Virus record (IMG/VR): IMGVR_UViG_3300006637_000025
Location: 1 to 26,603 of that record
Direction: 5' to 3' (one strand)
From: a virus
Length of the DNA stretch: 26,603 nucleotides
Part shown: positions 2,809 through 4,569 of the stretch, piece after piece
How positions within the stretch are numbered: the first letter of the stretch is position 1
How the letters are laid out: each line of letters begins with the position of its first letter
Position numbers and translations under genes: made by a program
Notes under the pieces: model-generated
Told to the model about the DNA's origin: nothing
Database searches by the model: none
The model's input: only the letters and a program-made list of their open reading frames with translations

Positions 2809-3023
2809 ATGTCGATCTTACAGGCTACTCTGTGGACGAGGGCGGGGACATCACCTACGAGACCCCTTGCGGATTCCTGATCGACATCGGTTTCGTTGAG
2901 ATACGCGAAGGCGACCCCGTCGTCACGCTGAATGTCTCGCGGGATATCCCCGTGTCCCAACTCCACAAGATCACTCACCTCGCGGCTAATTGGATGGCGG
3001 CGCAGCAGGCGAGCCGCAACTGA
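2805..3023 (+). CDS. Hypothetical small phage protein
   Basis: A 72-residue protein I do not recognise. It has an N-terminal acidic, strand-like half (YSVDEGGDITYETPCGFLIDIGFVEI) and a C-terminal helix (SQLHKITHLAANWMAAQQ). There is no signal peptide or membrane segment. Its start overlaps the lysozyme stop by four bases (ATGA) and it ends nine bases before the methyltransferase start, so it is part of the same operon. The gene is supported by this coupling and by good codon usage; the function is unknown. Confidence 0.6.
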   Translation: MNVDLTGYSVDEGGDITYETPCGFLIDIGFVEIREGDPVVTLNVSRDIPVSQLHKITHLAANWMAAQQASRN

Positions 3024-3031
3024 GGTCAAGG

Positions 3032-3961
3032 ATGAACTATTACAATGAGAACGACAAACACGCATCAGCTTGGCTTCGGGAGCTTATCCAACGCGGACTC
3101 ATTCCGCGAGGACACGTTGACGAACGCAGCATTGTCGAAGTTGAACACGGCGACCTTCAGGGCTACACACAATGTCACTTCTTCGCAGGAATCGGCGGGT
3201 GGAGCTACGCATTGCAACTCGCAGGATGGCCTGAAGACGAACCCGTGTGGACAGGGTCATGCCCATGCCAACCTTTCAGCGCAGCAGGGAAAGGCAAAGG
3301 AACCGACGATGAACGGCACCTATGGCCCGAATTCTTCCGCCTCATCCGCGAGTGTCGCCCTCGCATCGTCTTTGGCGAACAGGTTTCGAGCAAGGCTGGG
3401 CGTGGATGGTTCGATGGAGTATCGGCTGACCTGGAAAGTGTGGATTACGCCGCAGCGGCGGCAGATCTGTGCGCTGCGGGCATCCAAAGCCCGCACATCC
3501 GACAAAGACTTTATTGGGTGGCCGACGCCGAGAGGCCCGCACGGACACGGCCCAAGCGACGGCGTGACGAGAGGGTTGACCCCGGAAGGAGCGGCTCACT
3601 TGGCGGGTTGGGTGACGCCGCCAGCGAGGGATTGGAAGGACACGCCGGGGATGTCGCAGACGGGAACGAACTCGGACGGCTCGACGCGAACTCGCTTGGA
3701 TCAACTGCCGCGACAAGCCGCCCTTGGGATCGCTACGACACCCTCTGCTGCAAAGACGGGAAATCGAGGCGGGTTGAACCCGGCACATTCCCGCTGGTTG
3801 ATGGGCTACCCCGTGGAATGGTGCCAAGCTGCGATATCAGCAGGGCGTATGCTCAATCAACAGCGGAGGAGAGGGTGATGCGTTTACGCGGTTACGGAAA
3901 CGCTATCGTCCCGCCTCTCGCAGCAGAGTTCATAGCCGTGTTCATGGATGAGAGTGAATGA
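3032..3961 (+). CDS. C5 cytosine-specific DNA methyltransferase (Dcm-like)
   Basis: The 309-residue product carries the ordered motifs of C5 methyltransferases: motif I FAGIGGW (51-57) for SAM binding, the catalytic PCQ in SCPCQPFSAAGKGKG (C79), FGEQV (114-118) at the ENV position, HIRQRLYW (155-162) for motif VIII, and the C-terminal GYGNAIVPPLAAEF for motif X. The stretch between about residues 165 and 270 is low-complexity (Arg, Gly, Asp, Ala) and holds the target-recognition region. It would methylate cytosine in a specific site, probably to protect phage DNA from restriction. The ATG at 3032 has AAGG/GAGG just upstream; an in-frame ATG at 2990 lies inside the previous gene. No restriction enzyme is visible nearby. 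The gene also contains a second long frame (3045-3878), described separately. Confidence 0.92.
   Translation: MNYYNENDKHASAWLRELIQRGLIPRGHVDERSIVEVEHGDLQGYTQCHFFAGIGGWSYALQLAGWPEDEPVWTGSCPCQPFSAAGKGKGTDDERHLWPEFFRLIRECRPRIVFGEQVSSKAGRGWFDGVSADLESVDYAAAAADLCAAGIQSPHIRQRLYWVADAERPARTRPKRRRDERVDPGRSGSLGGLGDAASEGLEGHAGDVADGNELGRLDANSLGSTAATSRPWDRYDTLCCKDGKSRRVEPGTFPLVDGLPRGMVPSCDISRAYAQSTAEERVMRLRGYGNAIVPPLAAEFIAVFMDESE
3045..3878 (+). CDS. Second long frame nested in the methyltransferase gene (possible overprinted gene)
   Basis: In the +1 frame relative to the methyltransferase, 277 codons are open and fully nested. The product contains ANLSAQQGKAK (76-86), GTYGPNSSASSAS (91-103), YRLTWKVWITPQRRQICALR (126-145), RTSDKDFIGWPTP (150-162), LAGWVTPPARDWKDTPG (186-202) and LNPAHSRWLMGYPVEW (244-259). 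From memory, phage proteins with just these blocks (LTWK..TP..R.ICALRAS, GWPTP, LNPAHSRWLMG.P.EW) occur repeatedly in databases as hypothetical or methyltransferase-associated proteins. The C-terminal half looks more protein-like than the low-complexity methyltransferase linker it overlaps. The start is uncertain: ATG 3045 has no clear ribosome binding site. It may be a real overprinted gene, a frame preserved as a by-product of methyltransferase codons, or a historic fusion; translation is unproven. Confidence 0.45.
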   Translation: MRTTNTHQLGFGSLSNADSFREDTLTNAALSKLNTATFRATHNVTSSQESAGGATHCNSQDGLKTNPCGQGHAHANLSAQQGKAKEPTMNGTYGPNSSASSASVALASSLANRFRARLGVDGSMEYRLTWKVWITPQRRQICALRASKARTSDKDFIGWPTPRGPHGHGPSDGVTRGLTPEGAAHLAGWVTPPARDWKDTPGMSQTGTNSDGSTRTRLDQLPRQAALGIATTPSAAKTGNRGGLNPAHSRWLMGYPVEWCQAAISAGRMLNQQRRRG

Positions 3962-4220
3962 CTGCGAGGAATGTGCTTACCTCCGCGCTGAGCGGGCCGG
4001 GATGTATTTATCTGACGGGGCTCCGCTTGAAGTTGCTGACCGCGCAGCTCAGCGGGAGCGGTGCAGCAACCACCCTTACACACAGATGGACCTGTTCAAC
4101 GAACTGGCAGACAGAACGAGAAAGGTTGTGAAATCACCTACCTTTTGCGAACAGAAGCGCCGCGAGGGATACCCTTTGGCGGATCATATTCCCACCCCAG
4201 AGAGGCCGCAATGTCCATGA
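3948..4220 (+). CDS. Hypothetical protein with N-terminal CxxC
   Basis: A 90-residue frame starting at ATG 3948 (GTG 3954 is also possible) that overlaps the methyltransferase end by 14 bases. It has an N-terminal CEEC pair, further cysteines in RCSNH and FCEQK, and charged helical sequence, which could form a small zinc site. I do not recognise the family. Its last 83 bases overlap the 3' end of the convergent repressor gene, so either the two genes share their ends or this one is shorter than it appears. The operon position supports it being real; confidence is moderate. Confidence 0.5.
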   Translation: MRVNDCEECAYLRAERAGMYLSDGAPLEVADRAAQRERCSNHPYTQMDLFNELADRTRKVVKSPTFCEQKRREGYPLADHIPTPERPQCP

Positions 4221-4569
4221 TGCTCTCCTCTATCTCAGGAATCTGGTTGGCGCGCTTGAGAATGAATGCGAGAGCAAGCTCGCCCTGGTGCGATAGGTTT
4301 GCTGTAATCACATTCTCTTTTGCTTTAACCGCGACATGCCCGTGCAATTCTTCTGGCACCACGTCTGCCACATACGCCTTGAGCGCGTCGAGTTGGTTGG
4401 GCTTCTTAAGCGGGGCGAGCAGCCGCCACAGGTCATTCGCACTGCATGGCAGCCGGTCGTTGCAGGCCCTGCTGATGTACGCCTGGGTGACACCGGCAGA
4501 TTCCGCCAGTTGTGCCTGTGATTTTTTTTCCTCTCTCAGGACTCGCTTCAGGGTTTTTGGAAATTCCAT
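4138..4569 (-). CDS. Helix-turn-helix (XRE/Cro-CI type) repressor
   Basis: The 143-residue product has an N-terminal helix-turn-helix, QAQLAESAGVTQAYISRACNDR (residues 18-39), followed by a helical segment and an Ala/Leu-rich C-terminal region. There is no Ala-Gly cleavage site or S24 peptidase signature, so it would not be cut by the RecA route used by lambda CI; the C-terminus may serve for dimerisation. It is the only leftward gene among the rightward early genes and faces the early operon, the classical place for a lysogeny or early-gene repressor. Its predicted promoter (4586-4615) leaves a leader of about ten bases and no ribosome binding site. Candidate operators surround its own start. 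Confidence 0.8.
   Translation of the reverse strand: MEFPKTLKRVLREEKKSQAQLAESAGVTQAYISRACNDRLPCSANDLWRLLAPLKKPNQLDALKAYVADVVPEELHGHVAVKAKENVITANLSHQGELALAFILKRANQIPEIEESIMDIAASLGWEYDPPKGIPRGASVRKR

Follow-up and report, generated by a model that had tools for sequence, protein, structure and literature searches.

The small polypeptide of the C5 methylase M.EcoHK31I (YGGCCR) reportedly comes from another frame inside the gene for the large one, and Lee, Kam and Shaw are said to have described it in 1995 as a chain of about 176 aa. In this enzyme motifs I–VIII and X lie in the large subunit and motif IX in the small polypeptide, while the predicted recognition domain has been assigned to the large subunit (PMC3404938). 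M.AquI (CYCGRG) is a further two-polypeptide C5 methylase, in which the small subunit carries motifs IX and X (PMC3404938). In the monomeric enzymes M.HhaI, M.HaeIII and Dcm the recognition domain and motif IX share a frame with the catalytic domain, and there is no +1 gene. The multispecific C5 methylases of the Bacillus phages SPR, phi3T and H2 are single polypeptides read in one frame. Methylases of this kind accommodate tandem recognition domains within one enzyme (PMC8936443), and the region between motifs VIII and IX is the place of C5 recognition domains (PMC3404938; PMC2413257).

We have analysed a methylase gene in a phage record of IMG/VR (IMGVR_UViG_3300006637_000025; the whole stretch of 26,603 nucleotides is termed the window), in which replication, tail and internal virion genes are present. 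Anatomy and precedent together make it very probable that both chains of a two-polypeptide C5 methylase, resembling M.EcoHK31I, are specified by this one gene. Frame 0 (3032–3961) would be translated into alpha, in which a long, near-unconstrained linker connects a catalytic domain (motifs I–VIII) to motif X. The +1 frame (about 3309–3878) would give beta, made of an N-terminal helix-plus-hairpin, a few GW.TP modules of ~36 residues, and motif IX. Alpha and beta are predicted to associate into one working enzyme that needs both chains, with alpha responsible for AdoMet binding and cytosine methylation, and beta for target recognition. The second protein had been taken in the first-pass annotation for a separate one recurring beside methyltransferases; containing the recognition region and motif IX, it is better read as the small subunit of the same enzyme.

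Compared by motif layout, the gene divides its motifs just as M.EcoHK31I does, and a small chain nested in the other frame, as is reported for that enzyme, is present here too (189 aa). It differs in that the layout has been conserved in phages and prophages from Pseudomonadota, Bacteroidota and further phyla, in that selection tests place the constrained middle (recognition) region in beta and not in the large subunit, and in having shuffled modules and free-standing beta genes. As in M.AquI, the C5 enzyme would be divided between motifs VIII and IX, but motif X belongs to alpha and follows the end of beta, and beta overlaps alpha. Several units in tandem are shared with the SPR, phi3T and H2 enzymes, yet here it is the second, +1-encoded polypeptide that holds them. 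The monomeric enzymes share the catalytic domain fold and motifs with alpha. We searched a literature library for a prior report of this overlap in phages and found none; the sole precedent found there was M.EcoHK31I.

The two frames of the window gene

The +1 ORF (3045–3878, + strand) runs stop-free for 277 aa wholly inside a methyltransferase ORF at 2990–3961, confirming what had been noted from the sequence. The first TTG of the larger ORF is at 2990, but alpha probably starts at the ATG at 3032, just after a GAGGT (3022–3026). Alpha matches PF00145 in Pfam (E 2e-15) and phrog_363 in PHROGs (E 5e-79), and beta matches phrog_1008 (E 1e-20), labelled 'DNA methyltransferase'. The features, all on the + strand, are as follows.

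3032–3961 (+): alpha, C5 cytosine methyltransferase catalytic polypeptide; 309 aa, motifs I–VIII and X, disordered linker mid-chain
3045–3308 (+): 5′ part of the +1 ORF; open, +1 selection not clear in three sets (values below)
3176–3202 (+): alpha motif I (HFFAGIGGW); (nearly) invariant columns in alignment A3
3263–3277 (+): alpha motif IV (PCQPF, catalytic Cys); A3 columns, aligned to PCQAFS of M.HhaI
3309–3878 (+): putative beta subunit, +1 frame nested in alpha; 189 aa, MNGTYGP...NQQRRRG, from a presumed start codon, other starts being possible
3374–3385 (+): alpha motif VI (GEQV); (nearly) invariant columns in A3
3491–3517 (+): alpha motif VIII (PHIRQRLYW); (nearly) invariant columns in A3
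3516–3605 (+): beta module 1 (GWPTPRGPHGHGPSDGVTRGLTPEGAAHLA), probable recognition cassette; from the module split
3606–3725 (+): beta module 2 (GWVTPPARDWKDTPGMSQTGTNSDGSTRTRLDQLPRQAAL), probable recognition cassette; from the module split, Thr103 nearly invariant
3774–3821 (+): beta motif IX (LNPAHSRWLMGYPVEW), in the C-terminal part of beta; from hhalign, with L156, P158, M165, G166, P168 and W171 nearly invariant
3893–3913 (+): alpha motif X (YGNAIVP), beyond the end of beta; (nearly) invariant columns in A3

The five motifs listed in the first-pass annotation (I, IV, VI, VIII and X) are all correct; motif IX was missing from that list. A second DNA methyltransferase gene lies ~1 kb upstream (1475–2032; phrog_757, E 7e-63), and a small gene resembling a helix-turn-helix regulator is found downstream on the opposite strand (4138–4569, –).

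With motifs I, IV, VI, VIII and X and a predicted catalytic domain fold, alpha belongs with the C5 methyltransferases of PF00145. In the AF2 model the blocks to residue ~150 mostly have pLDDT of 89–98, with one block at 75, and the best Foldseek matches are M.HhaI (E 1e-8) and M.HaeIII. The linker at 181–230 has pLDDT of about 44–50, and this low confidence coincides with a methylase-frame selection ratio of about 1. Over the motif IX region frame 0 gives a weak motif-IX-like alignment to M.HhaI; given this, and the constraint there in the epsilon15 set (wMT 0.33, see below), alpha may keep a role at this position. At five loci (L005, L013, L030, L050 and L147) the beta frame is open and alpha is shortened, by alpha decay or sequencing errors. 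In two E. coli prophages (L369 and L370, 1486–2655) RefSeq gives alpha as two incomplete pseudogene pieces with the middle omitted, perhaps because that stretch is coding in the other frame.

The open +1 frame compared with chance

In the window gene itself a +1 run of this length arose in 6 of 500 synonymous-codon shuffles. Among 80 IMG/VR loci collected by a methylase protein query only, every one contained the +1 homologue, and the frame was open in all of 60 distinct full-length methylase relatives. The mean longest +1 run in these 60 was 283 codons, compared with 153 in synonymous shuffles and 77 in the +2 frame. Distant AT-rich copies, from Bacteroidota and others, are open in +1 over 210–350 codons, often against 0 of 300 shuffles. 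As a negative control we used 22 monomeric C5 methylases from a search of 94 genomes. Their +1 run was 88, against 85 when shuffled, with no excess, so C5-methylase motifs do not of themselves produce the long frame. The contrast makes the open +1 frame a trait of the alpha/beta family and not of C5 methylases generally.

Selection in each frame

Selection was scored in the style of OLGenie with our own script, from close pairs, using each sequence once and excluding changes to stops; wALT (dNN/dNS) refers to the +1 frame and wMT (dNN/dSN) to the methylase frame. Three pair sets with shared ancestry were used (epsilon15, Bacteroidota-like and window-type). In the overlap of the epsilon15 set (35 disjoint pairs) wALT was 0.22 (0.16–0.28) and wMT 0.23; outside the overlap of the same genes wALT was 0.73 (0.59–0.90). 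Inside the overlap only, first-position changes are raised and third-position changes depressed. The values by segment, in the order epsilon15/Bacteroidota-like/window-type, are as follows.

5′ part: wALT 0.75/0.79/1.08, wMT 0.05/0.11/0.26; methylase frame alone constrained
End of motif IV (DERH) to motif VIII: wALT 0.32/0.31/0.65, wMT 0.17/0.12/0.29; both constrained
Middle: wALT 0.18/0.52/0.63, wMT 0.82/0.95/0.97; +1 constrained, methylase frame near neutral
Motif IX region: wALT 0.20/0.44/0.67, wMT 0.33/0.86/1.11; mainly +1 constrained
Motif X to end: wALT 0.93/0.65/1.12, wMT 0.10/0.17/0.38; methylase frame alone constrained

Thus in the segment from DERH to motif VIII purifying selection acts on both frames through the same bases, as in overprinting. 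The pattern also means that the +1 ORF of 3045–3878 is too long at its 5′ end; the second protein had been drawn from 3045, and in relatives selection begins near 3309. IMG/VR holds two exact copies of the window gene, which are identical, and since the nearest distinct relatives in that database are ~55% identical in the methylase, the selection evidence concerns the family and not the window copy alone. At that level the substitution patterns leave practically no doubt of dual coding, with both frames under purifying selection. The expectation of the first-pass annotation that both frames are conserved on the same DNA is therefore borne out, and the checks it proposed point the same way: almost all close relatives keep the +1 frame free of breaks, it is constrained in the overlap test, and the second protein has been found, in two copies, without the methyltransferase frame.

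The beta polypeptide

Profile–profile comparison (hhalign) of beta with monomeric C5 methylases gives as the best local match their motif IX, with LNPAHSRWLMGYPVEW aligned against LTPRECARLMGFGDDF. The score is 25–29, compared with 12 ± 2.5 for column-shuffled profiles, none of 100 of which reached it. The hhalign probability is low (4–11%) because the match spans 16 columns only, so the argument rests on the shuffles and on the exact position of the match. Searching Pfam and NCBIfam with beta found no family, and single-sequence and profile searches of the PDB matched no solved chain. Modelled alone with AF2, from an alignment with four rows left out, beta (which may fold only with alpha) reached pLDDT 71 and pTM 0.31, and neither Foldseek nor VIA-align matched it convincingly to a known fold.

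Translation of beta probably begins by internal initiation near 3309, where +1 selection in the relatives sets in; the window has an ATG at 3309 and an AAGGA at 3297–3301, separated by a 7-nt gap. A universal start codon sought across the family was not found at any one conserved position. In the Bacteroidota-like set 42 of 73 members have an ATG at the DERHLWP codons, and in the epsilon15 set all 71 have one four codons upstream of them, although the Shine–Dalgarno match favours a TTG two codons later. Most members of the window-type set lack an ATG near DERHLWP. For epsilon15 an ATG with a Shine–Dalgarno sequence at –57 codons was rejected as the start, +1 selection being absent there.

Can beta exist outside alpha? 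An HMM survey of 428 fetched loci contained 403 beta ORFs, of which 401 overlap alpha, always in the same +1 register; these are loci and not independent genes, since some overlap or repeat each other. The other two are free-standing, in Edaphocola aurantiacus (L183, 3762–4346) and a Bacteroidetes MAG (L186, 3949–4515), each with an alpha/beta gene just upstream. They are 51% identical in amino acids (dN 0.50; dS 2.7, near saturation) with an ordinary coding pattern, and contain 13–14 stops in the –1 frame, that which alpha would occupy over a nested beta. The length of their N-termini fits a start near the DERHLWP codons (~3309 in the window). A further search of IMG/VR and Bacteroidota for free-standing betas found none beyond these two. 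Conversely, 31 of 431 alpha-like ORFs were without beta, and most of these were the monomeric controls. One unit of free-standing beta, residues 83–137 (L181/L429 Pseudarcicella, L186), is 60% identical to a nested-beta unit of another genus, a similarity which suggests that nested and free-standing beta genes exchange units.

The GW.TP modules

In 52 enterobacterial betas of the epsilon15 set the stretch from the hairpin to motif IX consists of two to four units of ~36 residues, opening with GW.TP. With boundaries set by a simple pattern, these fall into 14 clusters and 37 arrangements, and one unit type is found at differing ordinal positions. The flanks are constant, with average identity of 96% in the motif IX segment and 93% in the N part of alpha. 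Copies from E. coli prophages align to epsilon15 as two separate pieces, which in most records cover only 63–66% of the query. The beta of the window has two modules. Exchangeable units between motifs VIII and IX are what is found in multispecific methylases, but there the units belong to the catalytic chain; here they are constrained in +1 and nearly neutral in alpha.

The modules are likely to be target-recognition cassettes, in view of their exchange between conserved flanks and the precedent of tandem domains in the Bacillus phage enzymes. It is rather unlikely that beta is a partner subunit whose modules are structural repeats, or segments exchanged for some other reason. Beta has no fold match, which would suit such a reading; against it are set the exchange with flanks conserved, the tandem recognition domains of the Bacillus phages (PMC8936443), and the position of the modules between motifs VIII and IX, just where C5 enzymes have their recognition domains (PMC3404938; PMC2413257).

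Alternative explanations of the second frame

The first-pass annotation had left the choice between overprinting and a by-product of the codon and amino acid constraints of the methylase. Selection on both frames upholds the former. Shuffles of GC-rich relatives do keep fairly long +1 runs (the mean of 153 codons given above), as a by-product would require, yet monomeric C5 methylases exhibit no excess, the AT-rich Bacteroidota copies retain the frame, in most cases unmatched by any of 300 shuffles, the shift of changes from third to first positions is confined to the overlap, and in the middle it is the +1 frame that is constrained while the methylase frame is nearly neutral. The by-product reading is refuted at the family level by the shuffle, monomeric-control and substitution tests, leaving it a negligible probability.

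Two readings accept selection in +1 and differ over its product. Constraint in +1 in the middle and in frame 0 in the flanks is what programmed frameshifting would leave, with translation starting in frame 0 (motifs I–VIII), slipping into +1 for the middle and returning to frame 0 for motif X, so as to make one long methylase. This is very improbable: it needs two opposite shifts, and +1 selection is already present upstream of motif VIII (wALT 0.31–0.32 in two sets, 0.65 in the third), where such a product has no need of it. A frameshift product is further disfavoured because the free-standing betas have their own start near DERHLWP and their own stop. The +1 product might instead be an independent protein with a function unrelated to the methylase (e.g. 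anti-restriction or regulatory), overprinted by chance. Selection on both frames would be expected of this as well, and beta has neither a database relative of known function nor a fold match; but it contains the C5 motif IX, the alpha/beta pair is nearly inseparable, and the free-standing betas lie directly downstream of an alpha/beta gene, making independence distinctly unlikely.

Distribution and significance

How general is the arrangement? A tblastn search with the +1 protein found 219 phage records from many hosts, mostly annotated as methylase in either frame, and both frames are annotated in one Xanthomonas phage record and one Escherichia phage record. With the genomes used as centres included, 10 of 274 genomes in the class to which Paraburkholderia belongs carry phrog_1008, as do 3 of 296 in the phylum of Pseudarcicella. 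The alpha/beta arrangement is kept in phages and prophages of distantly related bacteria. In Komagataeibacter phage phiKX1 (L207, 3497–4015) the parts with motif IX and with motif X are separated by an insertion, in +1, of an HNH-type sequence (CEICGC...HVHHISENRSDNHPENLKTLCPSCHK), with pieces resembling the beta C-terminus on both sides and the alpha frame open throughout; the insert is possibly an intron or homing element. Rhizobium sp. S152 (L167, 2186–3867) has two alpha/beta genes in tandem, both with +1 similarity.

To our knowledge, few long, fully nested gene pairs on the same strand are known from cellular or phage DNA, and the evidence for them is often poor. The alpha/beta pair shows a clean selection signature, is spread over several phyla and can be given a likely function. 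Dual coding explains why many phage 'methylase' annotations disagree in frame or appear incomplete, and why the label on the +1 protein is either 'DNA methyltransferase' or hypothetical.

On balance the analysis favours an ancient, widespread dual-coding gene, in which a subunit with shuffled recognition cassettes lies out of frame inside its catalytic partner. If this is so, phages could switch methylation specificity by swapping cassettes of ~108 bp, which must stay open in both frames and which the catalytic chain reads as neutral linker. If the beta modules are indeed recognition cassettes, the cytosine-methylation specificity of phages would become predictable from sequence, and the origin of split C5 methylases would become testable.
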